Assembly: GCA_016794125.1 (NCBI GenBank)
Contig: JAEUKT010000001.1
Coordinates: 1-64,000 of the forward strand
Source: Alphaproteobacteria bacterium
GTDB lineage: Bacteria; Pseudomonadota; Alphaproteobacteria; Micavibrionales; UBA2020
Direction: 5' to 3'
Length of the DNA stretch: 64,000 nucleotides
Shown here: in pieces, positions 1 through 10,935 of the stretch
How positions within the stretch are numbered: the stretch's first letter is position 1
Layout: every line of letters begins with the position of its first letter
Position numbers and translations under genes: made by a program
The notes under the pieces: generated by a model
Databases searched by the model: none
The model's input: only the letters and a program-made list of their open reading frames with translations
What the model was told of the DNA's origin: nothing

Positions 1-71
1 GCGTTGTAATTGAAGTCGTCGCCAATCTTCCGCTTCCAAAACTCGGGATTTTTTAAAGGTTGCTCTTGCAT
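1..71 (-). CDS. Hypothetical protein, N-terminal part (cut by window start)
   Basis: An ATG at 71-69 on the minus strand is preceded by a strong GAGGGGG ribosome site and opens a frame that runs without a stop off the left edge (23 visible codons, beginning MQEQPLKNPEFWKRKIG). It lies 10 bp downstream of the stop of the next minus-strand gene, so it is probably the following gene of the same operon. The visible part is too short for any family assignment. Function unknown. Confidence 0.5.
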   Translation of the reverse strand, partial: MQEQPLKNPEFWKRKIGDDFNYN

Positions 72-81
72 GGCTGCCCCC

Positions 82-309
82 TCACGCCGCGCGTTGTTCT
101 GCGGAAAGCATCACGTCCACAAAGTTCGCGGCTCCCCCTGCTTGTTCGATAAGGGAGGCTGCAAAAGCTTCGTACATAAGAGGCGTAGCGATTGCGGGGC
201 TGGTCACTTTAAGGCTGGTCACTTCTTCCCCTTGGATACGGGAAAGAAAGCGGTTCGGCTCTGCGCTGATTTCGATGGTCAGGCCGTTCCATTTCATTTG
301 TGTTTTCAT
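82..309 (-). CDS. Hypothetical 75-aa protein
   Basis: Small acidic protein beginning MKTQMKWNGLTIEIS. I chose the ATG at 309 because AAGGA sits about eight bases upstream, whereas a longer frame to 360 has no ribosome site. The pattern of alternating hydrophobic residues in the first half followed by an Ala-rich helix suggests a small soluble alpha/beta fold, but I do not recognise a family. It sits in a row of short same-strand genes (1-71, 330-473, 548-703) typical of the regulatory or cargo end of an integrated element. No catalytic motif is visible. Confidence 0.5.
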   Translation of the reverse strand: MKTQMKWNGLTIEISAEPNRFLSRIQGEEVTSLKVTSPAIATPLMYEAFAASLIEQAGGAANFVDVMLSAEQRAA

Positions 310-329
310 TTTCTGCTTCCTTCTTGGAT

Positions 330-473
330 TTACGGGTTTCGCATGAAACCCGAACGCCAAGCGGCGAGCGCGAGCGGGGTGTACGGCGGCAAGGGCGGCG
401 CAGGCCGAGGGGTATCACCCATGCTGCACAAGCTCTTGCGCGGAAGCATGGGGATACGGCCTGCGCCGTTCAT
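330..473 (-). CDS. Possible 47-aa proline-rich microprotein
   Basis: Short minus-strand frame beginning MNGAGRIPMLPRKS, with AAGGG six bases before the ATG and about 20 bp between its stop and the next gene on the same strand. The composition (Pro, Arg, Ala) is unusual and could also be produced by chance in GC-rich DNA, so this is a tentative call supported only by the ribosome site and the spacing within a run of small co-directional genes. No family recognised. Confidence 0.3.
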   Translation of the reverse strand: MNGAGRIPMLPRKSLCSMGDTPRPAPPLPPYTPLALAAWRSGFMRNP

Positions 474-547
474 CGAAGACCCTTGCGCCGTGAGGGGTTA
501 AGACCCCTTACTTAATTTGCATCCATATTTTCTTGCGAAAGCGATTG

Positions 548-703
548 TTACCCGAATGGGCGAAGACTCCGTAGGAGGCTTCGTGAGCCTGCGAATAAAG
601 CGCGGTGCGCTGCTTGCAGCGCATTTGCCATGACTTGCGCTTGTCTGTTTTCTAAGGCGTGGCAGTCGCCTTCGGTCAAGTTAATCCGCTGGTTCTGGCT
701 CAT
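548..703 (-). CDS. Small helical protein, 51 aa
   Basis: Protein beginning MSQNQRINLTEGDCHALENR and ending in an amphipathic helix rich in Ala, Leu and Arg (ALFAGSRSLLRSLRPFG). The layout, an INLT-type strand followed by a long Ala/Arg helix, resembles short uncharacterised alphaproteobacterial proteins I have seen, but function is not known. GAGG lies about seven bases before the chosen ATG. An alternative ATG at 757 gives 18 more residues with a poorer ribosome site. It heads the group of small minus-strand genes at the window's left edge. Confidence 0.4.
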   Translation of the reverse strand: MSQNQRINLTEGDCHALENRQAQVMANALQAAHRALFAGSRSLLRSLRPFG

Positions 704-986
704 CGTCCAGCCTCGGCCTTTGAAACTGTTTGTTCCTCTTACGCTGCAACTGTCCATCGTTCCTTAGATGCGTCAAAGGGTGCTGCTCTACGCAGTTTCT
801 ATGCTCCTGCATTTCTGGCCGCTGTCGGCCTTCTTATTCTGCATCCTGGCATCTGTTCGCCTTAATGCCTGCAAACCCTGACGGTTTTCTCCACAAGGGT
901 TCCGCCAAGTGCAGGCAGGCGATACGAGCTGCTCAGTCCGCTCCATGAAGGCCGCGAGGTCGCGGTCAGAAAAACAGGAGCGAAAC

Positions 987-1184
987 ATGACGTACATCAT
1001 CACGACGCAGGAACTCGAACACCTGAGCGAAGCGGAACTGCACCAGAAGTTTCACGCGATACTGAACGATCTCGCCCGCCGCAATATGGCGGCGGCGAAT
1101 TGCCCGCTGGCGACGGTGACACTTGAAAACATCCGTCGCGCAATTCAGCGCAAACGGGCGCGCGCGCCTCGCCCGCGTTTCTAG
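987..1184 (+). CDS. Hypothetical 65-aa protein
   Basis: Small protein starting MTYIITTQELEHLSEAELHQ, with an excellent ribosome site (CAGGAG, six bases before the ATG). The predicted helices (LSEAELHQKFHAILNDLAR) and strongly basic tail (IQRKRARAPRPRF) suggest a small DNA- or RNA-associated protein, but no family is recognised. It is followed after about 10 bp by a perfect stem-loop terminator shared with the converging gene at 1228-2076. A longer frame starting at 909 is not supported by a ribosome site. Confidence 0.6.
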   Translation: MTYIITTQELEHLSEAELHQKFHAILNDLARRNMAAANCPLATVTLENIRRAIQRKRARAPRPRF

Positions 1185-1194
1185 CGCGGCAAAA

Positions 1195-1224
1195 AAAGGG
1201 GGCGCGTTATTACGCGCCCCCTTT
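1195..1224. terminator. Bidirectional rho-independent terminator
   Basis: A perfect 12-bp inverted repeat (AAAGGGGGCGCG at 1195-1206 and its complement at 1213-1224) around the 6-base loop TTATTA. The A-tract on the left and T-tract on the right make it work in both directions, closing the plus-strand gene ending at 1184 and the minus-strand gene ending at 1228. Confidence 0.85.
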
Positions 1225-1227
1225 CCA

Positions 1228-2076
1228 TTAGTCTTTAGCTAAGTCAATTTCAAATTCGTCATCGTCGTTATGTCCCTGCAATCTTGCAAGTTCTTCAACA
1301 TCTTCAGCCGTGGCAACTTTGAGACCAATTTTTTTATATATTTGGAGAATTTTGTTTTGGCGATCATTGTACTCCGTGTCATTTTCTGTCCATCTGCGGC
1401 CGCCCGTAACGCGCATAATGTGTTCCTTATTGCGCTCTCCGTGCATTTGCTTCGGGAAAAAGTCAGTAGGGTCACGCTTTTCCATTTCCTTCCCGTCAAG
1501 ACTTACGATAGGCATTGAGAAAGCCGTGTTTCCTGCACGTCGAAGCAACTTTAAATCTACAGATATAGATTTACCGTCTGCGGATTTACCTTTTCCTGTA
1601 ATAATCACCGCCTTTTCTTCTCGTATTACGTCGATGCCCTCAAGTTGCAATCCCTTGATGTTCGCATTGGTATCAAACAACGCGAAGCCAATAACATCAG
1701 AGAGTATCGTGAACATATTAGACGGCGATTGGATAAACGGTAAAACGTCATGCCAAACTTCGCCCTGAAAAAAGCGCTCACCTTGCAGATAGAAGAGTAA
1801 AGTGCTGCAAATATCCTTTGCACTAGGAAGATCAGAGGGCAACCCTTCAAGCTCCCCAAGTCTTTGGTGTACCAAATCGGCTGCGGGAGCAATCAATTCG
1901 GCTTCCGATAGACGTTTCAAGTCATACGTCGTATCGGATAACATTGCGGCTCTGCTTCCATAGCCGAAGTACGCAGCCACAATTTCATGTGCATGCGTTG
2001 CTTTAAGTTTAGCGTTGTTATTGGAGTATTTTTTACGCAGATGATCCGCGCAAGATTTAGCGATGTCTGATTGCAT
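1228..2076 (-). CDS. Hypothetical protein with plasmid/island-type N-terminal domain
   Basis: 282-aa protein. The N-terminal stretch (residues about 8-50, containing LKATHAHEIVAAYFGYGSRAAML) resembles a short helical module I associate with uncharacterised proteins on plasmids and islands, where a Lys-Leu-Lys-x-x-His-Ala-x-Glu pattern precedes Phe-Gly-Tyr. The rest has no motif I recognise. The C-terminus is acidic (NDDDEFEIDLAKD). The gene is isolated, with GGAGG before its ATG, faces the SOS cassette divergently and shares a terminator with the converging gene at 987. Function unknown. Confidence 0.6.
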   Translation of the reverse strand: MQSDIAKSCADHLRKKYSNNNAKLKATHAHEIVAAYFGYGSRAAMLSDTTYDLKRLSEAELIAPAADLVHQRLGELEGLPSDLPSAKDICSTLLFYLQGERFFQGEVWHDVLPFIQSPSNMFTILSDVIGFALFDTNANIKGLQLEGIDVIREEKAVIITGKGKSADGKSISVDLKLLRRAGNTAFSMPIVSLDGKEMEKRDPTDFFPKQMHGERNKEHIMRVTGGRRWTENDTEYNDRQNKILQIYKKIGLKVATAEDVEELARLQGHNDDDEFEIDLAKD

Positions 2077-2262
2077 GATGCAACCTCCTTTAATGTGCCA
2101 GCTAATTCCGTAGTCAAGAATGTTTAAGAACTACTAGCGCCAGCGGTTAAAGAAGGTAGCGAGTAGATACTCAGATTTTTAGTTGTCGTCTTTTCGGTCA
2201 TTCTCACCCGAGGCATCGACTCCGACTCCGAGGCTATAAGACGGGGAAATATTTTGCAAGAT

Positions 2263-2283
2263 TGTGGATAAGCCTGTGGATAC
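2263..2283 (+). promoter_or_regulatory. Pair of DnaA-box-like sites
   Basis: TGTGGATAA at 2263-2271 is the exact complement of the consensus DnaA box TTATCCACA. A second copy with one mismatch, TGTGGATAC, lies at 2275-2283 in the same orientation, 12 bp apart, about one helical turn. The pair sits in an AT-rich intergenic stretch upstream of the SOS promoter. It could be a DnaA-controlled site, part of a replication origin of a former mobile element, or coincidence. Confidence 0.4.
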
Positions 2284-2298
2284 GCTTTAAGATCGTTC

Positions 2299-2327
2299 TT
2301 GATTTCGAATCTAAGCCATTGTATTAT
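2299..2327 (+). promoter_or_regulatory. Sigma-70 promoter of the SOS cassette
   Basis: TTGATT (2299-2304) and TATTAT (2322-2327) are separated by exactly 17 bp, pointing toward the 60-aa gene at 2423. The LexA box begins 15 bp after the -10 element, so bound LexA would cover the transcription start and early transcribed region. The remainder of the 2077-2422 intergenic stretch holds the DnaA-box pair and no gene I can support. Confidence 0.6.
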
Positions 2328-2342
2328 ATATGTTTCCTATTT

Positions 2343-2357
2343 GTTCCTTGTCTGTTC
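2343..2357 (+). promoter_or_regulatory. LexA (SOS) box, alphaproteobacterial type
   Basis: GTTC at 2343-2346 and GTTC at 2354-2357 with exactly seven bases between: the direct-repeat operator GTTC-N7-GTTC bound by LexA in Alphaproteobacteria. It lies just downstream of a good sigma-70 promoter and 66 bp upstream of a gene pair containing a Y-family polymerase, the classic target of SOS control, which makes a chance match unlikely. Confidence 0.85.
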
Positions 2358-2422
2358 ATATTTTTGCTGTTAGCCTGACCTAATCCCGACCGCCTCCGGT
2401 CGCGGTTAGCAGGAGAAATTTC

Positions 2423-2605
2423 ATGGCAGAAAAAGAACTGAAAAAATCCGATGTGCGCGAATTGGAAGATGCCCTGACTGTGGCGAAAATCGCCTGTCAC
2501 CGTTTCAAAAGCAAAGTCACTTACGCTGGCAATCTCTACGATTGCGCGGAAGACGTCATTCACGCCATAGAGCAGATGACGAAAGAAACACCTAATTTGG
2601 CTTGA
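2423..2605 (+). CDS. 60-aa SOS-controlled small protein
   Basis: First gene behind the LexA box, with AGGAG before its ATG. The protein (starts MAEKELKKSDVRELEDALTV) is charged and mostly helical, with a central basic patch (HRFKSKVTYAG) and an acidic second helix (DCAEDVIHAIEQM). Its TGA overlaps the TTG start of the polymerase gene by two bases, so the two are translationally coupled. That arrangement recalls umuD-umuC, but the protein is far too short and lacks the Ser-Lys dyad of UmuD. I infer a polymerase accessory or an SOS regulator; the family is not recognised. Confidence 0.7.
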   Translation: MAEKELKKSDVRELEDALTVAKIACHRFKSKVTYAGNLYDCAEDVIHAIEQMTKETPNLA

Positions 2606-3897
2606 AGTATGCGCCTCTTTTCAACCCCTACCAGAAACCAGCAATGCGAAAACCAACCACCATTGAGACACTCTATCTCGATTTCGACGGGTTTTTCGCA
2701 TCCGTCATGCAACAGGCTATGTCGCATTTGCGCGGCAAGCCTGTGGGCGTAATCCCGTTTGATACTTCGGCGGCTAATTCCACCATCGTTATTGCCTGTT
2801 CAAAGGAAGCCAAGGCGAAGGGCTGTAAGAACGTCATGCCCGTCAGGGAGGCGCGAAACATCTGCCCTGAACTCGTCCTCGTCACCCAACGCCCCGATTT
2901 GTACCGAAGGGCACACAACGCGCTTCTAAATGAAATTTCCTGCGAAATTCCCATCGAAACCGTGAAGTCCATTGATGAACTATGCTGCAAGCTCGATAGC
3001 AGGGACATAGCCGACCCTGCAAAACTCGCGCAGCGCATCAAAGCCCGCATAAACAAAAACATAGGCGATCAGATAACTTGCTCTATTGGCTTTGCCGCTA
3101 ACCGTATGCTGGCTAAAATCGCTGGCAAAAGAAACAAACCCAACGGCGTAACTATCTGGCGGCCGGAAGACTTGCCTGAACCGTTATTCGCCCTGTCCTT
3201 CGAGGATATTCCGGGCGTGGGAAAAAGCATGACAGCGCGGCTTGAAAAAGCTGGCATCTTTACGGTGCAAGACCTTTACAACGCGCAGTCCAAGCATCTT
3301 CGCCGCCTGTGGAACAACGTGACGGGGGAGCGCATGTGGTATGCACTGCATGGCTACGAAATTCAGGCCGAGTCTACCGAACGCGGAATGTTCGGCCATG
3401 CCCGCGTTATGCCCCCTCAACACCGCACCATCGAACATGCAAAAGACTGTTCCCGCTTGCTATTGACCAAAGCGGCGTACCGTATGCGGCGCGATAAATT
3501 CTATGCAAGTTCCCTTTCGCTATGGCTGGATATGCGCGACGGTCAATGGGGTAAATGGCAGGAACTGCCTTGTGTGCAGGATGATTTGGCCTGTCTAGAA
3601 GCCCTCGGCGCTCTTTGGAAGATCGCCGTCATGACAATCTCGCCAAAGGCAGAGATTGTTCGCGTCGGCGTGACGCTGGGTGAACTTACACCCGTGACAG
3701 AGCGGCAACTTGACCTTCTCCTGAACGACGACAAACAACGCCAGAAGAGTGAGAAACTCACGCAAGCCGTAGATCACTTAAACAGTAAATTCGGCAAGCG
3801 TGTGGCAACTTTCGGGTGGTGGGTTCCCCCTCCAGGCGGTTTTGCCGGAGGCAAGATTTCCTATACCCGTATTCCTTCAGCGGAGGATTTCTGGTGA
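2602..3897 (+). CDS. Y-family (DinB/UmuC-like) translesion DNA polymerase
   Basis: 431-aa lesion-bypass polymerase. Metal-binding residues are present: the first aspartate in YLDFDGFF (D27) and the Asp-Glu pair in SIDEL (D125, E126). The steric-gate region reads GFFASV. A helix-hairpin-helix motif (IPGVGKSMTARL) marks the thumb, followed by a little-finger domain. There is no obvious beta-clamp motif that I can point to, and the C-terminus (GGKISYTRIPSAEDFW) resembles island/plasmid ImpB-type proteins rather than chromosomal DinB. Start taken as TTG overlapping the upstream TGA; ATG at 2644 is an alternative. SOS-regulated through the box at 2343. Likely raises mutagenesis or damage tolerance after DNA damage. 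Confidence 0.9.
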   Translation: MKYAPLFNPYQKPAMRKPTTIETLYLDFDGFFASVMQQAMSHLRGKPVGVIPFDTSAANSTIVIACSKEAKAKGCKNVMPVREARNICPELVLVTQRPDLYRRAHNALLNEISCEIPIETVKSIDELCCKLDSRDIADPAKLAQRIKARINKNIGDQITCSIGFAANRMLAKIAGKRNKPNGVTIWRPEDLPEPLFALSFEDIPGVGKSMTARLEKAGIFTVQDLYNAQSKHLRRLWNNVTGERMWYALHGYEIQAESTERGMFGHARVMPPQHRTIEHAKDCSRLLLTKAAYRMRRDKFYASSLSLWLDMRDGQWGKWQELPCVQDDLACLEALGALWKIAVMTISPKAEIVRVGVTLGELTPVTERQLDLLLNDDKQRQKSEKLTQAVDHLNSKFGKRVATFGWWVPPPGGFAGGKISYTRIPSAEDFW

Positions 3898-4148
3898 GCT
3901 GGAAGGATGACATGAAGTTGAGGGATTTGGACGACAGCACATTGATAGAGGCAACATGTGTGCGTTGCCTCTATATGTGGAAGCAAAGCCCCGTTCAGCT
4001 TCTTATCAAGGTCGACCATCGGGATGTTTATATGGTTGAAGTAGAAAAAAATCTTGCCTGCCCCCGCCCTAACTGTCGCCATGTTGGAACAAGGATTGCG
4101 CTTATCCGCAACCACGACACGAGCGGTTTTGTGGGTGGGATGCCGTGA
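3894..4148 (+). CDS. Small putative zinc-ribbon protein, 84 aa
   Basis: GTG start at 3894 overlaps the polymerase stop codon (GTGA) and has GGAGG seven bases upstream, so this is the third gene of the SOS operon. The protein carries a CVRC pair (first half) and a second cysteine pair in CPRPNC, spacing that suggests a zinc ribbon. The central part alternates hydrophobic residues as in a beta-sheet (VQLLIKVDHRDVYMVEV). Function unknown; linkage suggests a role with the polymerase, for instance DNA or protein binding. Confidence 0.65.
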   Translation: MSWKDDMKLRDLDDSTLIEATCVRCLYMWKQSPVQLLIKVDHRDVYMVEVEKNLACPRPNCRHVGTRIALIRNHDTSGFVGGMP

Positions 4149-4223
4149 CTTTCGACCTATATAAAATCAAATGGAACAGCTAAGATAGTCCATCAGGTTC
4201 GGGAAATTAAGAGACAAGAAATA

Positions 4224-4880
4224 ATGTGTGGCCGCTTCGCAGTAGTCAAAAAATTAGAGGAAATCGCTGCCTACTATAAGGCGCAGCTTGTCGATGGCGA
4301 CGAATGGCGCGAAAGCTACAATATCGCGCCTACGCAGTGCGTCCCTGTTCTTGTCGAAACCGACAAAGGGCGCGAATTGCGCCTGATGAAGTGGGGCTTG
4401 CTGCCGCATTGGTGCAAAGACCCGAAGAAAGCCGTGTTTAATGCGCGTAGTGAAACTATCGCTGAAAACCGTTTTTTCAGTGATAGCTTCAAAAAGCGGA
4501 GGTGCATTGTACCCGTAACCGGCTTTTACGAGTGGAAAGTAATAGATAAGCAGCGTTATCCGACTTACTTTACACCAAAGGAAGGGCTGTTTTCCTTCTG
4601 CGGTATTTGGAGCGATTGGACTTCACCTGAAGGAGAGAAGATTAATACTTTCTCGATCATCACGACAACTCCAAATGATGTTGTCGGGAAAATTCATGAC
4701 CGAATGCCAGCAGCGATTACAAGCAACATGATTGGCGCTTGGCTCGGCGCGAACACTTCAAGCGACGACCTAAAATCGTTTCTGGCTCCCTATCCTGCAA
4801 GTCAAATGATGGGCATTGAGGTTTCGCAGTATGTGAACAAATTTGCGAACCCCGGGGAAAAATGCATAGAGCCTATTTGA
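4224..4880 (+). CDS. yedK: SOS response-associated peptidase, YedK/HMCES family
   Basis: 218-aa SRAP-domain protein. After Met removal the catalytic Cys2 (MCGRF) forms a thiazolidine cross-link with abasic sites in single-stranded DNA, shielding them from breakage and from error-prone bypass. All expected residues are visible: C2, N73 and R75 (NARSETI), E103 (GFYEWK) and H158 (IHDRMPAAI). Length matches the family. It lies 75 bp behind the SOS cassette on the same strand; no GTTC-N7-GTTC box of its own is seen, so co-transcription with the polymerase is plausible. yedK next to SOS polymerases is a known genomic association. Confidence 0.95.
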   Translation: MCGRFAVVKKLEEIAAYYKAQLVDGDEWRESYNIAPTQCVPVLVETDKGRELRLMKWGLLPHWCKDPKKAVFNARSETIAENRFFSDSFKKRRCIVPVTGFYEWKVIDKQRYPTYFTPKEGLFSFCGIWSDWTSPEGEKINTFSIITTTPNDVVGKIHDRMPAAITSNMIGAWLGANTSSDDLKSFLAPYPASQMMGIEVSQYVNKFANPGEKCIEPI

Positions 4881-6713
4881 TTAGGCGATCTTTCTAGATA
4901 TTTCTCGGAACCAGTCAACAATCTCTGTATATGAATTGCGATTTTGCAATCTCGCAATAGTCATTTTTGCGGCTGCATCGTCATTCAACCAATGTTTAAG
5001 GGATCGCCTATCGAATCTTCGCTGACCTGTCAGATTGAAAATCTCAGTTTCCACATCGCAGTTGTCATCGAGAGTAAAGGCTAACGTGCCAGCATGTGCT
5101 GATAACGCTTCATTTATCGCGTCAATGTGTAGGTAGTTTTCAAGTTCGCGCTTTTGAGTCAAATAACCTCTCGACCCATCAGTACGGGCATTTACCGCGT
5201 CTTTTGCTGCCTGATACTTATAAGTGCCATCAGGTCTTTGCTGGTCTCTATCATAAATATGAATTTCAGGTATGGCGAGGTTTTTAAGATAACGTTGATT
5301 AACCCACTCTTGAAGTGTGCTTCCACCCAGAACAATAAAAGCAACTCTATGGTCATTAGCAATATCTGGAATAGTGGGGTCGGCAGCACGACACAATTTA
5401 TTAATGTGCTTCAAAAATTGAATATCATGCGGACCTTCAACGCAGACTAAGGTGCGAACCCGTTTGTCGGGGATAATGCCAAGGTCGGTAGCCACATCCT
5501 TTAAAACATCATCATCCGCCACTTTAACAATACGCTGATTAGTTGCATTGGTAGTAACATGTCTTACAGAAGCGACAGGTATCAGAGAAGCGAGTGCTGG
5601 AACGTGGGTGGTTAGCAAAACCTGGCACCCCTCAACAGAGGACAAAGTTTGCAGAGCTTCTATAATTTTCCTTTGATTATTTGGGTGTTGTGCCGTTTCA
5701 GGCTCCTCAATCGCATAAATGATATTCACCTTATGATGGGCACTTTTCAGTCTTTCTGCCTCTGCTCTAAAGAAACTAAATAAGATAAGGCGGCGAACTC
5801 CACTACCCCGCTTATTGACGGGGATATTGTCGTCGCCGCTTAAAGTGATTTTAAATAAGGTGTCCCATTTAGGGTCTGCACGAAAATTTGGAAGTAGTTG
5901 CTCCGCTAGGGTGGCATCAAAGTCAGATAATTTATCTATAGTACGATTAGCAACATCTAATGCTCGTGCTTTTACCTTGTCTTTGACAGCGGCTAACTCA
6001 TCCTGAACCTCCTCTAATGCTTGTTTAATAGCGACTTTAAGAGGGTCTTGAACTTCAAGATCTTCATCCGTGGATGGCCTATCCGCGCGAAAAAGAGCAT
6101 ATTCAGGAAGATAAGATGATAACTGTTCCCAAATAGCTTTTGCATCTTCTTTATCTAATTGAAGATCGGTTGATTGAGGATTTAAGTTAGTTTGACTTCC
6201 CCAAATGGCACGACGTAAGGCCACATTCGAGCGTGTATCAATACCCGTAGTTACTCCTAATGCATTCCCTTGAGTGCGTAACTCTGCATTTTTCTTGGCT
6301 AGAAGGTCGCTAAAACCCGTAAGAGTCGGATGATTAGCTACTGCGAATATTTTTCCCTTTTTTAGAGTAGCGTCGGAAAATTCCCAAACTTTGTGTAATT
6401 CAAGAAAGCCGTCTGCAGTTAATAAATGCTCGTCTGCGAGTGTTGTAACAGAAGTCTCATCAATAGTTAGTTGCGGCGGAAGGTCATCAAATACACAGCC
6501 AATTCGTAATTCACCAACATTACCGGCCCTCACGTTAATATCTGAATTATCAATCTTACCTAGAGGATGCTCAAAGAAAATTGCCAGAGCATCAAAAATG
6601 GAAGATTTACCAGCGTCATTTTTTCCAATGAAAGCAGTTAAAGCACCAATTGGAATACGCTGTTCGCCTTGATAGCCACGGAAATTTTTGATGATTATTT
6701 CTTTAATGAACAT
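4881..6713 (-). CDS. OLD-family ATP-dependent nuclease (AAA ATPase plus Toprim)
   Basis: 610-aa protein. N-terminal SMC/RecF-like ATPase: Walker A GKNDAGKSS (30-38), signature RGSGVRRL (302-309), Walker B IIYAIEEPE (331-339), switch histidine TTH (370). C-terminal Toprim nuclease: VEGPHD (425-430), metal-binding Asp pair in IYDRD (488, 490) and a downstream KRELENYL. Both activities therefore look intact. The best-known relative is phage P2 Old, an exclusion protein. No UvrD-type helicase partner (as in Gabija) and no reverse transcriptase are nearby, so this is a stand-alone OLD. AT-rich compared with the flanking chromosome. Probable phage-defence or DNA-maintenance role. The stop abuts yedK's stop. 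Confidence 0.9.
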   Translation of the reverse strand: MFIKEIIIKNFRGYQGEQRIPIGALTAFIGKNDAGKSSIFDALAIFFEHPLGKIDNSDINVRAGNVGELRIGCVFDDLPPQLTIDETSVTTLADEHLLTADGFLELHKVWEFSDATLKKGKIFAVANHPTLTGFSDLLAKKNAELRTQGNALGVTTGIDTRSNVALRRAIWGSQTNLNPQSTDLQLDKEDAKAIWEQLSSYLPEYALFRADRPSTDEDLEVQDPLKVAIKQALEEVQDELAAVKDKVKARALDVANRTIDKLSDFDATLAEQLLPNFRADPKWDTLFKITLSGDDNIPVNKRGSGVRRLILFSFFRAEAERLKSAHHKVNIIYAIEEPETAQHPNNQRKIIEALQTLSSVEGCQVLLTTHVPALASLIPVASVRHVTTNATNQRIVKVADDDVLKDVATDLGIIPDKRVRTLVCVEGPHDIQFLKHINKLCRAADPTIPDIANDHRVAFIVLGGSTLQEWVNQRYLKNLAIPEIHIYDRDQQRPDGTYKYQAAKDAVNARTDGSRGYLTQKRELENYLHIDAINEALSAHAGTLAFTLDDNCDVETEIFNLTGQRRFDRRSLKHWLNDDAAAKMTIARLQNRNSYTEIVDWFREISRKIA

Positions 6714-6719
6714 TTGATA

Positions 6720-6739
6720 CTCCTAAAAACACAATTAGG
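6720..6739 (-). promoter_or_regulatory. Hairpin that partly buries the OLD ribosome-binding site
   Basis: In the minus-strand transcript the sequence CCTAA (6739-6735), an 8-base loop and TTAGG (6726-6722) form a 5-bp stem. The Shine-Dalgarno AGGAG (6724-6720) begins inside the second arm. The structure could lower or regulate translation of the nuclease. Short stem, so only suggestive. Confidence 0.35.
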
Positions 6740-6821
6740 TTTTAATACATCGTGTGTAAAAAGTCTCGCATATCTACTGCACACAACAGTATGCGCTTGT
6801 TAGAAAATATATGATGAAGTA

Positions 6822-6860
6822 TTGACATAAGTTAATCGAAAGTGCTGATATAACAGCACT
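6822..6860 (+). promoter_or_regulatory. Promoter overlapped by a palindromic operator
   Basis: A perfect -35 TTGACA at 6822-6827 is followed, 18 bp on, by TGATAT (6846-6851) as a -10. The -10 lies inside a 7-bp inverted repeat, AGTGCTG (6841-6847) and CAGCACT (6854-6860) around ATATAA, the usual geometry of a repressor operator. The promoter points right, away from the OLD nuclease gene, into the hairpin-rich stretch 6861-7012, which has no supported gene on the plus strand. Confidence 0.5.
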
Positions 6861-7012
6861 GCGCTGGCTATGTCCTGTTCAGGACATTGATCGCCACCAT
6901 GACAATGTTCATCTGTCATTGCGCCCGTGAAACAGTCAGTCGTCCGACCTTTCCTGTTTCACGGTAGCATCGTATTCCGCGCCGACGTTCATCGGCGTTC
7001 TCGGTCTACGAT
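6861..7012 (+). ncRNA. Candidate structured RNA (four hairpins)
   Basis: Between OLD and the next gene lie four hairpins in 150 bases: ATGTCC/GGACAT (6870-6887), ATGACA/TGTCAT (6899-6919), a perfect 11-bp stem CCGTGAAACAG/CTGTTTCACGG (6925-6964) and GCCGA/TCGGC (6981-6996), the last enclosed by ATCGTA/TACGAT (6969-7012). Three loops contain GTTCA. No protein frame fits, and a good promoter lies directly upstream. I do not recognise a known RNA family. No U-tract terminator is evident at the 3' end. It could instead be a DNA-level protein-binding array. Confidence 0.4.
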
Positions 7013-7023
7013 TTCAGGAAGGC

Positions 7024-7761
7024 TTAATTGCAGACTTGATTGGAAATTTCAGTATCATTTTTATTGATAATTAAATTTTTGTGACACACAGGGTCTTCAC
7101 ACAGAACAAAGTCCTCTACTACATAAGAGTAATCATGATTTTTAAATGTATAATGTCCGTTACCGCCATTACCATCTGGTAAGTAATCCCCCACAAGGTT
7201 CAATTCTGGTTTTTCTGTAAGGCTGTCTCCCTTTTTCCAGACAAAGTAGCGTATTACGTCACCATGTCTTTGAACCCTAATACGTTTTGATTTCGTCTCA
7301 CAAGTGAGCAGAAGATTTGTATAACCTCTAGCTTCTGAATTGATAGACTGCCCTTCTTTTTCTTTCGCTTCCTCGAAGATTTTTTCAAACGTACTAGTGT
7401 TATATTGAATCCTATAAACCTTTGCGTCTTTAAACCAAACTAAACCATTCACTAGCTGCACACCGCGCCAGCCAATTTGTTCCGGCTTGGCGGCCAAAAC
7501 CTCATTAGTGAATTTTGCATCGAAAAACTCATCCCAGTGCGTGACAAACTCTTCGGGGGTTTTGATGGGCGTCAACGGATAGTCACGCTCTAAAGGATAG
7601 TAGATCAGATTAGCGACTGCCTTTTTATCGTCGTTTTTTAAAGCCTGTTGAAACTTAATTGCTGCGTCTTCATCGGCTTTGAACTCGACAGAAATCTGTT
7701 GAGCGAAAGCGGAGGATGTAAGAAAGAAAAATACTGAACACAGGACAAGAAAAAAGCGCAT
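7024..7761 (-). CDS. Secreted hypothetical protein, 245 aa
   Basis: Starts with a clear signal peptide (basic residue, a long Phe/Leu/Val core, then SSAFA before QQ), so it is exported. The mature part begins with a helical segment and has WRGVQLVNGLVWF, a pattern common to small periplasmic proteins of unknown function. Cysteines near the C-terminus (LCEDPVC) may form a disulfide. The frame extends upstream into tRNA-Leu, so I use the ATG at 7761, although no strong ribosome site precedes it. AT-rich like OLD, suggesting transfer. Function unknown. Confidence 0.6.
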   Translation of the reverse strand: MRFFLVLCSVFFFLTSSAFAQQISVEFKADEDAAIKFQQALKNDDKKAVANLIYYPLERDYPLTPIKTPEEFVTHWDEFFDAKFTNEVLAAKPEQIGWRGVQLVNGLVWFKDAKVYRIQYNTSTFEKIFEEAKEKEGQSINSEARGYTNLLLTCETKSKRIRVQRHGDVIRYFVWKKGDSLTEKPELNLVGDYLPDGNGGNGHYTFKNHDYSYVVEDFVLCEDPVCHKNLIINKNDTEISNQVCN

Positions 7762-7799
7762 GTAAGAACTCGCACAATACGGGTAAAGGGAGGAAAAAG

Positions 7800-7886
7800 T
7801 GGTGCCTCTGGTCGGACTCGAACCAACACGCCATTGCTGACTACGCATTTTGAGTGCGTCGCGTCTACCAATTTCGCCACAGAGGC
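7800..7886 (-). tRNA. tRNA-Leu (anticodon CAA)
   Basis: Complete 87-nt leucine tRNA with encoded CCA. Acceptor strands GCCTCTG and CAGAGGC pair perfectly. The anticodon stem ACGCA/TGCGT encloses loop CTCAAAA, giving anticodon CAA (reads UUG). There is a long variable arm and a GGTTCGAGTCC T-arm. A TATAAT box (complement of 7903-7908) lies upstream. It is the only intact member of three copies of its 5' half in this region, and forms the left boundary of the integrase array. Confidence 0.95.
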
Positions 7887-7902
7887 ACGACTGTATTTTT
7901 AT

Positions 7903-7908
7903 ATTATA
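7903..7908 (-). promoter_or_regulatory. -10 element of tRNA-Leu
   Basis: A perfect TATAAT on the minus strand, ending 16 bases before the tRNA 5' end. A clear -35 is not seen. It lies on the integrase side of the tRNA, so the promoter used by the intact tRNA may have been brought in with the element. Confidence 0.5.
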
Positions 7909-7948
7909 CGGCGGCTTGAAGCAACTATAAAAAAGCCTTTTAAAATGC

Positions 7949-9268
7949 CTATTTAGAAGGTTTTTTTGTCTTGGCTTTAGTGCCTTTCTTGTTTTCGCTC
8001 TTTGCCCTCTTCTTTTCTTTCGGTCTAGGCTTCATCACGTTCACGGCTGCGGTATCAATGGCGTTAGCCAGATGCCGCGCATAGTACTTCTCGATCATTT
8101 CGACACTAGTACGGCAGTTTTTAGCTACCTGATAAATGTCTGCCCCCTCCAGCAAGCGAAGGCAGATATAAGTGTGGCGCAAGCTGTAGCAAGTTCTCAT
8201 GTGACCATCACGGTCAAACTTCATATTTAGTTCATCCTCCCCGAGAACTTGGTTCATCATTTCGCGGGGAGTCTTACCAAAGATTTTCTGATTAGGCTGT
8301 AGTTTCTTGCGGTCGCGTATGCGTTCAAAGGGGAATACGGCTCCTGGCATTGATTTGCAGTAGCCCACGCCACGCTTTCCGCGCACTTCGATTTCAAGGA
8401 TGGTTTCTTTTGTATCAGCATCCTTGACGATTTTAACGTCGCGCAATTCAAGGCGCGCGGATTCATCAGGGCGTAAGCCTGTATTTCCCATGAACAGAAC
8501 ATAGTCATGGAAATTCTCACAAACATCTTTCCAACGAGGATTAGGCGGGTTATCGGCTCGTTCCCGCGTGTGTTCATATAACTTCTGGTATTCTTCGGGG
8601 CTAAACCATGCCCTATGCTCTATTTTGCCGGATTGCTTATAGGGAGCCGACATATCCGGCACAGCGTCAATCCAGCCCTTGCGGTTGGCTAGTTTCAGCA
8701 GTTGACGCAAGGTTACTATCTCGCCATGCAGCGTAGCGCGGGCGGGTTTCTTCGGTTTCCCGTCCTTGCCTATACGGGAGGTCTGACGGTGGGCGCGATA
8801 CTCCTGCACCATTCCGGCGGAAACGTCGGATATGGGGGTATCGCCAAAGAACGGTAATAGGTGGACTTTGATTTGGTCTTGCTTGGAGTCAACATAGGCT
8901 TCGCTGCGCTCCCCAAGGGTGATAGCTTCATACTCTTTCTTGAATATCTCCGTGACATGACGGAACGTAACCCCGTTTGAGGGTTTACGGCGGCGGCGAT
9001 CTTCGGGCTGGGTGTTGGCGGGGGAAGCTACCTCGACAAGGCCATCCAGCAGGAGGGAAGTACCACCACGACGCTTGCGGCGGGATTCAACGTATAATTC
9101 CATATACCAATCCTTCGCAAAGGCTTTGGCATGAGCGAAGTTTTCTTCTTTCGTGGATTGTCTGTGATTACGTCCGTTGAAAAAGGCGGCACAATGCCAA
9201 TACTTCGAGTTTTCACGTTTGTATATGTGAAGTCGGCCATCCATCAATTTGTAGTTTTCGGTGTCCAT
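7949..9268 (-). CDS. int: Tyrosine-type site-specific integrase 1
   Basis: 439-aa phage-type integrase. Order: N-terminal arm-binding region (LHIYKRENSKYWHC), core-binding domain, catalytic domain. Visible catalytic residues are the first Arg in NTGLRPDE, Arg in YSLRHTY, and the nucleophilic Tyr in IEKYYARH. As in many relatives with a CRTSVEMIE box, the first box-II His is replaced by Tyr. The ATG at 9268 is chosen over 9295 because GGGGGT precedes it and because it aligns with the start of integrase 2. A basic insert (about residues 60-100, RRKRRGG to EDRRRRK) and a Lys-rich tail are absent from integrase 2. The gene is 110 bp downstream of a truncated tRNA-Leu copy, its presumed attachment site. 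Confidence 0.93.
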   Translation of the reverse strand: MDTENYKLMDGRLHIYKRENSKYWHCAAFFNGRNHRQSTKEENFAHAKAFAKDWYMELYVESRRKRRGGTSLLLDGLVEVASPANTQPEDRRRRKPSNGVTFRHVTEIFKKEYEAITLGERSEAYVDSKQDQIKVHLLPFFGDTPISDVSAGMVQEYRAHRQTSRIGKDGKPKKPARATLHGEIVTLRQLLKLANRKGWIDAVPDMSAPYKQSGKIEHRAWFSPEEYQKLYEHTRERADNPPNPRWKDVCENFHDYVLFMGNTGLRPDESARLELRDVKIVKDADTKETILEIEVRGKRGVGYCKSMPGAVFPFERIRDRKKLQPNQKIFGKTPREMMNQVLGEDELNMKFDRDGHMRTCYSLRHTYICLRLLEGADIYQVAKNCRTSVEMIEKYYARHLANAIDTAAVNVMKPRPKEKKRAKSENKKGTKAKTKKPSK

Positions 9269-9373
9269 GCCTACCCCCAAAACTGTGTAAGACATGTGTA
9301 ACTTTATCTGGTAATGGATAGAATGTCAACTATTTGTTTTTACACGTGTTTTTTCTAGTTTTGGTATATATAA

Positions 9374-9417
9374 CTAGATTTTGAGTGCGGCGCGTCTACC
9401 AATTTCACCACAGGGGC
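9374..9417 (-). repeat. Truncated tRNA-Leu 5' half (hybrid attachment site)
   Basis: Reading on the minus strand, 9417 to 9379 repeats the first 39 bases of tRNA-Leu(CAA) (acceptor strand GCCCCTG, D-arm, anticodon loop CTCAAAA) with only three differences from the intact gene at 7886. The anticodon stem is broken: 5' strand CCGCA faces TCTAG. TCTAG would instead pair with the CTAGA of the outer copy at 10,792-10,796. This is what crossover inside the shared CTCAAAA core would leave. A TATATT box (complement of 9427-9432) is kept upstream. Confidence 0.8.
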
Positions 9418-9474
9418 ATGGTGCAAAATATAACCCCAACGGGCTGATTTTGCCAGCTTAAATTAATCCTTATT

Positions 9475-10656
9475 TTACTTGGGTTTCTTCGTCTTCTTTG
9501 CCCGTTTCGGCTTCTCTTTTCGGACGTTGATAGCCGAAGCGTCCAAGGTGTTCTTGATGTGCGAGGCGTAGAATTTCTCGATCATCTCGACGCTGGTGCG
9601 GCAGTTCTTGGCGACCTGATAAATGTCCGCCCCTTCCATCAGGCGCATGCAGATATAGGTGTGACGGAGGCTGTAGGCAGTGCGTCTTTGCCCGTCCCTG
9701 TCGAATTTGAGTTCAAGTTCGTCAAGAATATTGTTCAACAGTTCACGCTGGGGCTTCCCGAAAACTATTCCGTTCGGCTTTTCGGCAAGCTGCTTCCTTT
9801 TAACCGTCCGGTTAAAAGGAAGGACAGCCCCAGGCATACTTTTGCAATAGCCGACTCCTCGTTTCCCTCGGACTTCGATTACGAGGATGCGTTCGCCCGT
9901 TGCTTCGTCGGTTTCGACGGCAACGTCTCGTAATTCGAGTACAGCCGCTTCGTCCGGCCGTAGTCCTGTATTGACCATGAAAAGTATGTAGTCGTGGAAG
10001 TTTTCACATTCTTCTTTCCAACGATTATTCAGCGGCTTTGATGCACGCTCCCGCGTAGCTTCATATAATTTCTTGTATTCCTCGGGGGAAAACCAAGCGC
10101 GGTGTGCCACCTTCCCCGCCGTTTTGTAGGGCATGGACAGGTCTGGCACATGGTCTATCCATCCGTGCCGCTGCGCGGTTTTAAGGACTTGCCGGATAGC
10201 GACAATCTCTTGGTGCATGGTGCTACGCGACGGGGGCTTGCCCGTCTTGCAGTTCTTCGATCTCCATATACGGTAGTCCTGAATTGTACCTGCGGTGATT
10301 TCTGACAAATACTTCTCCCCCAGAAAGGGAAGGATGATGGCTTTCAGCTTTTGGTCGTATTGGGCAACCCATGTCTCCGACCGCTGGCCGTGGGTGATGA
10401 CGGGGTATTCATCTAGGAACTTCTCGGCTGCTGCCTGAAACGTCTTGCCGCTATTCAGGATACCAGCGCGGGCTTTGCCGCGCAGTTCCAGATACCAATC
10501 TTCTGCAAAATCCTTGGCTAGGGCGATGCTGTCGCTCTTGGTGGAGACACGCCACTGGCGACCGCCGACGGAGGCGGCACATTGCCAATAGCTGCTCCGT
10601 TCGCGTCGATACACGCTAACAAGACCGCCGAGGATTTGGTGTGTTTCTGTAACCAT
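9475..10656 (-). CDS. int: Tyrosine-type site-specific integrase 2
   Basis: 393-aa integrase clearly related to integrase 1 along its whole length (shared blocks such as HRAWFSPEEY, RGKRGVGYCKSMPGAV, GADIYQVAKNCRTSVEMIE). Catalytic residues: R233 (TGLRPDE), R331 (YSLRHTY), Y363 (KFYASH). GGAG lies five bases before the ATG. It lacks the basic insert present in integrase 1. Its gene contains a perfect 13-bp inverted repeat at 9793-9822 that the paralogue does not have. It is bounded by truncated tRNA-Leu copies on both sides. No excisionase gene is seen. Confidence 0.93.
   Translation of the reverse strand: MVTETHQILGGLVSVYRRERSSYWQCAASVGGRQWRVSTKSDSIALAKDFAEDWYLELRGKARAGILNSGKTFQAAAEKFLDEYPVITHGQRSETWVAQYDQKLKAIILPFLGEKYLSEITAGTIQDYRIWRSKNCKTGKPPSRSTMHQEIVAIRQVLKTAQRHGWIDHVPDLSMPYKTAGKVAHRAWFSPEEYKKLYEATRERASKPLNNRWKEECENFHDYILFMVNTGLRPDEAAVLELRDVAVETDEATGERILVIEVRGKRGVGYCKSMPGAVLPFNRTVKRKQLAEKPNGIVFGKPQRELLNNILDELELKFDRDGQRRTAYSLRHTYICMRLMEGADIYQVAKNCRTSVEMIEKFYASHIKNTLDASAINVRKEKPKRAKKTKKPK
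9793..9822. repeat. Perfect 13-bp inverted repeat inside integrase 2
   Basis: CTTCCTTTTAACC at 9793-9805 and its exact complement at 9810-9822, separated by the 4-base loop GTCC. It encodes part of the sequence AVLPFNRTVKRKQL between catalytic boxes. The equivalent stretch of integrase 1 has no such symmetry. Confidence 0.75.
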
Positions 10657-10780
10657 GATAACTCCACAATCAGCACGAAGGGAAAAGTGTGCTAGATGTG
10701 TGTTAGTATATCAAATCTTAGTTAATTCTTCAAACCAATTGTATTTGTTGAATAATTTTGTCAGTGAGGTAGGCATCTTT

Positions 10781-10823
10781 TAGATTTTGAGTCTAGCGCG
10801 TCTGCCAGTTCCGCCACAGGGGC
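10781..10823 (-). repeat. Truncated tRNA-Leu 5' half (outer junction, probable original locus)
   Basis: Minus-strand 10,823 to 10,781 gives GCCCCTG, a D-arm and an anticodon arm CTAGA-CTCAAAA-TCTA, after which similarity to a tRNA stops. It diverges more from the intact tRNA than the middle copy does. Because the sequence to its right is ordinary chromosome, I infer that this is the 5' half of the original host tRNA-Leu(CAA), now separated from its 3' half. A TATATT box (complement of 10,832-10,837) remains upstream. Confidence 0.75.
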
Positions 10824-10935
10824 CTCGGGTGAATATATAACGCCAATCGTGGCACATTACCAGTATTTCTGACACTCTGTGATCAAAGTTATGTCAATAT
10901 TGCATCCGTCGGGGTTCGCGTGTTAAACCAATGAC

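Follow-up and report, generated by a model that had tools for sequence, protein, structure and literature searches.

A genomic island that very probably breaks a host tRNA-Leu(CAA) gene and carries a complete replacement, with a second integration nested in the first

The window analysed here, positions 1 to 64,000 of contig C1 in an alphaproteobacterial genome of 3.16 Mb (G000) that is Micavibrio-like to go by its named relatives, holds one end of a genomic island that very probably broke the transfer RNA (tRNA) gene tRNA-Leu(CAA) of its host and carries a complete replacement tRNA-Leu(CAA), with a second element (B) nested in the replacement tRNA of the first (A). The anatomy of the sequence, both halves of the host gene, an empty site that fits them and the recurrence of this arrangement in dozens of relatives can all be observed directly. 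C3 is another contig of G000, the other G numbers are comparison genomes and L numbers are individual loci. The features at the integrase end of the island, with att denoting attachment sites, are as follows.

1–10784, no strand: part of the island inside the window, read as going on in contig C3 (1–22595)
7800–7886, minus strand: complete, functional-looking replacement tRNA-Leu(CAA) of element B, ACGCA-CTCAAAA-TGCGT (ARAGORN; Rfam tRNA, 58.1 bits)
7887–7948, minus strand: putative element-borne promoter region of the replacement tRNA, with TATAAT about 20 nt upstream of the tRNA, read from the sequence
7949–9295, minus strand: intB, tyrosine integrase, 448 aa (PHROG phrog_1, E=2.5e-24)
9296–9378, no strand: left arm of element B, comprising the att half-site TCTAG (9374–9378), which is not tRNA and abuts the core CTCAAAA, and the region before intB
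9379–9417, minus strand: orphan 5' half of element A's replacement tRNA-Leu(CAA), attL of element B; in G004 the corresponding part of the intact element-A tRNA, GCCCCTGTGGTGAAATTGGTAGACGCGCCGCACTCAAAA, is almost the same
9475–10656, minus strand: intA, tyrosine integrase, 393 aa (PHROG phrog_1, E=5.6e-31; weak match to Pfam PF00589)
10657–10784, no strand: left arm of element A, comprising the att half-site TCTAA (10780–10784) and the region before intA
10785–10823, minus strand: orphan 5' half of the original host tRNA-Leu(CAA), attL of element A; anticodon loop CTCAAAA at 10785–10791, direct-repeat family

The single tRNA found by ARAGORN in the whole window is the tRNA-Leu(CAA) at 7800–7886 on the minus strand, whose acceptor and anticodon stems pair perfectly internally and not with the orphan host halves. 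A repeat search unites three copies in one direct-repeat family, at 7847–7887, 9378–9418 (93%) and 10784–10824 (78%), and reading of the sequence places the tRNA portions of the two truncated copies at 9379–9417 and 10785–10823, both stopping after CTCAAAA. The three copies ending in CTCAAAA that the initial annotation had described are therefore confirmed, as one intact gene and two 5' halves, each adjoining a related tyrosine integrase. Elsewhere in the window the 12-mer of the middle junction, CTCAAAATCTAG (9374–9385), has no exact match, and it is matched with one mismatch at the outer junction alone, where 0.2 would be expected. A search of G000 with the 5' half returned three perfect matches and two weak ones (three mismatches) from other tRNA-Leu genes. 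TATATT and TATATA boxes similar to the TATAAT of the intact tRNA lie upstream of the orphan 5' halves. Both integrase genes read toward the intact tRNA. IntB is 59% identical to IntA, and residues of the catalytic type, R...(Y)xLRHT...Y, are invariant across the seven relatives in the integrase alignment. A comparison with 50,697 phage records gave one match, which was weak and partial.

The outer 5' half lies about 110 bp from a VTT/DedA gene, and comparison with relatives that have no integrase there (G005, G008, G021 and G033) finds an intact tRNA-Leu(CAA) beside that gene, at the same site. In G005 the intact gene, which would be attB, reads CTAGA-CTCAAAA-TCTTG, the stem CTAGA being identical to that of the outer orphan half. 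Because the integrase-free relatives have an intact tRNA at this place, 10785–10823 is read as the leftover 5' half of the original host gene. The corresponding 3' half was found detached in the same genome, as one further copy at G000:C3:22596–22650, by means of a T-arm and acceptor-end pattern together with the flank of G010; the 3' flank of G005 was not found in G000 and was thus of no use for placing the far end. The pattern CTCAAAAT(C/G)TAG had no success in recovering the lost 3' half, because the host stem is TCTTG. In its context, ...CCTAAGTTAGA-CTCAAAA-TCTTG...GGGGGCACCA, the core is preceded by TTAGA, and the orphan 3' half itself, CTCAAAATCTTG...GGGGGCACCA, agrees with the 3' half of the host gene in G005, and its pairing with the outer 5' half is likewise the same.

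The junctions in G000 are accordingly attL, CTAGA-CTCAAAA-TCTAA, and attR, TTAGA-CTCAAAA-TCTTG, the latter also being present in G002, G003 and G004. From these, attP would be TTAGA-CTCAAAA-TCTAA, with the predicted sequence TTAGACTCAAAATCTAA, in which the arms form a perfect inverted repeat flanking CTCAAAA; the TCTAA at 10780–10784 is likewise the inverted repeat of the far-end TTAGA, and in G000, G004 and G002 TCTAAAAGAT(A/G)CC comes next after the orphan 5' half. The four sites attB, attL, attR and attP would all fit one integrase reaction. The core is about 14 bp (TAGACTCAAAATCT); attB, as reconstructed from the empty site, overlaps the host tRNA gene, and attL and attR hold one orphan half each, neither rebuilding a functional tRNA. 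The initial annotation had seen repeated, nested site-specific integration in the anticodon loop with displacement of the host 5' half, and in this it was right. It had also proposed an unusual polarity in which 5' halves alone are left over, and this does not hold, as a 3' fragment, which it had itself named as telling against the idea, lies at the far end in G000 (C3:22596–22650) and also in G002, G003, G004, G007 and G012.

We propose that recombination by the tyrosine integrases, which are presumably active, takes place at a short core within the anticodon loop of tRNA-Leu(CAA) and that, with attP lacking the rest of the tRNA, the host gene would be broken irreparably, the integrase end keeping its 5' half and the far end its 3' half. 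Decoding would then pass to the complete replacement tRNA-Leu(CAA), which has a putative promoter of its own, is positioned 40–160 bp downstream of the integrase gene and would presumably be both expressed and needed. Of the initial suggestion that the element brings a new 5' half and promoter, the element-supplied putative promoter stands; what arrives is not a 5' half to be joined to the host 3' half but a whole tRNA with halves that fit one another, and neither host half is left functional. Element A would have destroyed the original host tRNA, and unit B, with its own integrase and tRNA, would then have entered the anticodon loop of A's replacement, of which the 5' half alone remains.

G004 represents the state before element B. 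Its locus has the host orphan CTAGA half, an integrase to which IntA is 98.7% identical, and an intact tRNA (CCGCA/TGCGG) with stems that fit one another but not those of the host, and its VTT/DedA protein is 96% identical. The TCTAG of the middle copy in G000, which had been taken as the mark of a recombined hybrid of two tRNAs, is really present; it is not a tRNA 3' half and runs on as TCTAGTTATATATACC, and the best reading is that element B ends here. The hybrid can thus be set aside, TCTAG being the left att arm of element B and the missing 3' half being TCTTG. An IntB homologue in G007 (71%, nucleotide) stands at the same kind of junction. The cargo to the left of the tRNA has the same order as that of the A-type island of G002, which is most simply explained by a probable deletion, through recombination between homologous cargo of the two islands, that removed B's cargo and other end along with A's 3' half. 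The homologous island of G002 is continuous across the counterparts of C1:1 and C3:1, which lie about 100 bp apart there, so that C1 and C3 would adjoin and the island would be about 33.5 kb.

The same layout is seen on a single contig in G007, which can be regarded as an independent case in a sibling genus. There an orphan 5' half (CCTGA, C8:153049) is followed by the integrase, a complete tRNA (C8:154526–154612), cargo and an orphan 3' half (TCAGG), the whole island being 22.4 kb, and the stem of its own tRNA, CTGGA/TCCTG, differs from the host halves CCTGA/TCAGG. The site in G010, of the same genus, is free of integrase, and its 5' flank matches G007 and G012. In G012 the two host halves lie on two contigs, the 3' half beside a flank that is continuous with the tRNA in G010. 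At one locus of G012 (L140, C19) two orphan tRNA-Leu 3' halves (1291–1344 and 2787–2838, minus strand) lie about 1.5 kb apart with an FAD-oxidoreductase gene region between them.

To this can be added 80 named loci with relatives of the integrases, collected with the alignment of seven integrases. They come mostly from Sphingomonadales, Caulobacterales and Micavibrionales, with single records from Burkholderiales, Gammaproteobacteria, Acidobacteria, Planctomycetes and Verrucomicrobia, and because related sequences are included many times the counts are not of independent events. A tRNA is found no more than 500 bp downstream of the integrase in 61 of the 80, and in 55 of these 61 an orphan 5' half lies just upstream of the integrase. 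The targets are tRNA-Leu(CAA) (34), Leu(UAA) with an intron (14, two of them labelled Ser by ARAGORN), Ser(UGA) (7), Ser(CGA) (4) and Leu(UAG) (2). The acceptor stems of the orphan half and the element tRNA usually differ (for example GCCCCTG in a host and GCGGGCG in the element), and in two small elements the orphan 3' half falls inside the covered flank (L191, +5.8 kb; L225, +2.0 kb).

Several observations weigh against this account or limit its reach. Neither the 3' half of element A's tRNA, sought by BLAST, pattern and local alignment, nor the far junction of element B was found in the G000 assembly, and for this reason the insertion of element B is read from its attL and its collapse is conjecture. 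The join between C1 and C3 is drawn from synteny with G002 rather than from sequence across it. Another orphan tRNA-Leu 3' half, more decayed and with the left arm ACATCA, lies at G000:C3:24605–24660 (L154), 2 kb past the first, and would be a further footprint, of an older or different integration, that falls outside the model. No tRNA was found within 500 bp of the integrase in 19 of the 80 relatives, several of which are too close to a contig end to judge. In the tRNA-Met members of the wider family (L092, L093, L094, L096, L100, L102 and L103) the integrase is downstream of the tRNA and there is no orphan 5' half, which means that not every branch of the wider integrase family shares the layout. 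The CAA tRNA may, lastly, be non-essential if tRNA-Leu(UAA) reads UUG. As a separate observation, the same 2-kb flank sits in G004 (C275) after an element-A-type 3' half.

The last of these objections leads to the alternative that survives best, which we nevertheless regard as unlikely. Here the architecture stands, but the tRNA of the element would be no more than a passenger, retained by accident or because island genes need it for their translation, and the host survives because its tRNA-Leu(UAA) reads UUG, which by the wobble rules it could in principle do. Against this, 55 of the 61 tRNA-linked loci retain an intact tRNA of the isotype targeted, always in the same position, the targets extend beyond Leu(CAA) to tRNA-Ser(CGA), tRNA-Ser(UGA) and tRNA-Leu(UAA), and the analogous phages have been found by experiment to depend on their tRNA (PMC10865867). 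Far less probable is the model first put forward, in which small elements of 1.4 kb consisting of an integrase enter the anticodon loop, supply a new 5' half together with its promoter and depend on the 3' half of the host. Two successive 5' halves about 1.4–1.5 kb apart with an integrase alone between them would fit it, and islands with a 5' fragment of a tRNA gene do exist (159 of 3,919 in Islander; PMC4383910). It was dropped after the detached host 3' half turned up, 22.6 kb into C3 and in five relatives, with a clean attR; the 3' half adjoining each element 5' half matches that 5' half and not the host, and in sphingomonads the acceptor stem of the element tRNA is unlike that of the orphan half. 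Least credible of all is gene conversion or drift, in which the element gave a 5' half alone that the host 3' half later matched by compensatory mutation: the tRNA 3' halves of G012 and G010 do differ by few bases, so that island and host 3' halves can be close, but the true host 3' half persists elsewhere in G012, G007 and G000, and the one beside the element 5' half is not the host's.

That the spare tRNA is protected from the element's own integrase, a form of self-immunity, is put forward here as a hypothesis. In all 14 tRNA-Leu(UAA) loci (L203, L204, L206, L217, L218, L219, L223, L225, L230, L241, L247, L248, L250 and L253), where the tRNA lies just downstream of the integrase gene, the anticodon loop of the element tRNA is split by an intron, which would hide the spare tRNA from the integrase. 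Three of five intron loci checked match Rfam group I introns (L219, L241 and L253), the other two being below the gathering score. The 13 orphan host halves seen at UAA loci have an uninterrupted loop, in which the bases past the crossover could be element-derived. The 12-nt stem-loop is shared between host and element in none of 59 pairs, with greater divergence in the stems than elsewhere in the half (0.38 vs 0.13), and for the CAA and Ser elements stem or loop differs from that of the host in every pair; for the intron cases the loop mismatch counts contain intron bases and were left unused. A within-isotype permutation of the non-intron pairs predicts 0.9 identical pairs with a probability of zero of 0.36, so the difference is not significant and self-immunity through changed stems is not established.

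The remaining annotated features of the island in the window lie to the left of the replacement tRNA.

2602–3897, plus strand: Y-family DNA polymerase (ImpB/MucB type), cargo (Pfam PF00817, E=1.2e-36)
4224–4880, plus strand: SOS-response-associated peptidase (SRAP), cargo (Pfam PF02586, E=4.2e-66)
4881–6713, minus strand: AAA_15/OLD-like ATPase, AriA-like (Pfam PF13175, E=3.7e-73; PADLOC AriA, E=3.3e-61)
6857–7012, minus strand: conserved structured RNA candidate (fold z = -6.93 for one sequence; no Rfam family)
7024–7761, minus strand: hypothetical secreted-protein-like open reading frame (ORF) of 245 aa that separates the tRNA from the conserved RNA (without a match in Pfam, PHROG or NCBIfam)

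The candidate RNA, of about 150 nt, is directly 3' of the element tRNA in most relatives, usually 6–9 nt away in sphingomonads, and in the window it is pushed away from the tRNA by the ORF at 7024–7761. Of the 25 pairs in an alignment of 30 sequences, 18 covary, where shuffled controls give 10.5, a signal that is removed by sliding the pairing partner, and a search of Rfam gave no matching family. The RNA was detected at E < 1e-9 in 24 of 78 loci scanned, and a second model adds tRNA-Leu(UAA) and tRNA-Leu(UAG) elements. Besides the copy in the window, it was noted at L175 (11475–11629), L078 (8626–8778) and about 25 other loci. In a survey of 190 genomes of the class it is present in three, G000 among them; that of G169 has an integrase and a tRNA-Leu(UAG) beside it, and that of G154 a tRNA-Leu(CAA) nearby, where no relative of intA or intB was found. 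Its position suggests a role in tRNA maturation, transcription termination or the control of integration.

The polymerase region is 84% identical in nucleotide sequence to the same place in the G002 island, and the ATPase is a possible phage-defence gene of the island; the C-terminal half of the ATPase is possibly TOPRIM-like. The G007 island has genes for a MobA/VirD2-like relaxase, a NikA-like protein, ArdA and an integrase. That of G000 has ArdC and a relaxase without its N-terminal (nuclease) part (C3:1867–3258), from which this copy may no longer be mobilizable, and, just inside the far end (C3:5788–21677, from reading of the ORFs), two RND heavy-metal efflux systems, an outer-membrane efflux protein and a P-type-ATPase-like protein. 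No virion genes were recognised in the parts of the island examined, where relaxase/mobilization, RND efflux and P-type-ATPase-like genes are present instead. The island would be best described as one of the type of the integrative mobilizable elements (IMEs), which it resembles through the integrase, relaxase, NikA-like and antirestriction proteins of G007, the truncated relaxase of G000 being the point of difference.

The closest parallel is with some mycobacteriophages that integrate in a tRNA gene through a core of about 10 bp, do not rebuild it and require their own tRNA of that isotype (Guerrero-Bustamante & Hatfull 2024, mBio, PMC10865867). Examples of such tRNA-dependent lysogeny are Fionnbharth and Gaia, the latter at tRNA-Leu-CAA with an 8-bp core and the tRNA downstream of int, and how frequent this form of integration is outside actinobacteriophages was asked in the same paper (PMC10865867). 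The islands share with these phages the tyrosine integrase, an attB in the host tRNA, the short core, the tRNA that is not rebuilt and the complete element-borne tRNA, and with Gaia the tRNA-Leu(CAA) downstream of int. They differ in being islands that bring relaxase/mobilization genes and cargo for metal resistance, in the fixed place of the tRNA by int across an integrase clade, in the nested events, the conserved RNA and the intron-containing tRNA of the UAA elements, and in that dependence was demonstrated there by experiment and is presumed here from sequence. It would seem that the islands work like tRNA-dependent lysogeny and are not members of it, what is new being a dedicated integrase clade on islands, the fixed tRNA position and the nested use of the replacement tRNA as the next target.

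With classical tRNA-targeting islands and integrative conjugative elements (Islander; PMC4383910) they have in common the tyrosine integrase, the crossover in the anticodon loop and the displaced tRNA fragment at the island end; there, however, attP carries a piece of the tRNA, the gene is restored and one fragment is left, whereas here each half of the host gene is a fragment and the complete tRNA comes entirely from the island. Finders based on the interval from tRNA to fragment would be expected to see about 1.4 kb, under the 2-kb limit of Islander. A tRNA-Thr locus of Caldiarchaeum subterraneum is similar in having a 5' tRNA fragment, about 1.9 kb with a recombinase-like gene and an intact, intron-containing tRNA of the same isotype (PMC3293823). 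It differs in being archaeal and in being read there as disruption of a tRNA gene by a transposable element, and the parts of that report consulted describe no 3' orphan half or att sites (PMC3293823).

More tentatively, it is possible, if somewhat doubtful as a whole, that a cassette of integrase and complete replacement tRNA-Leu or tRNA-Ser, often with the conserved RNA, has spread in Alphaproteobacteria and beyond by such 'break and replace', that the replacement tRNA is altered in its anticodon stem or loop, or by a group I intron, so that its own integrase cannot use it, that the islands turn over host tRNA genes and spread tRNA introns, and that the RNA is part of the machinery of integration or of tRNA expression. 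The tRNA-dependent layout appears to be standard for the whole integrase clade on bacterial islands. If so, islands would replace core tRNA genes, the replacements could become the next target, and common island-finding methods would misplace or miss such islands, while the structured RNA and the intron of the UAA elements raise the questions of how the element protects its spare part and why tRNA introns spread.

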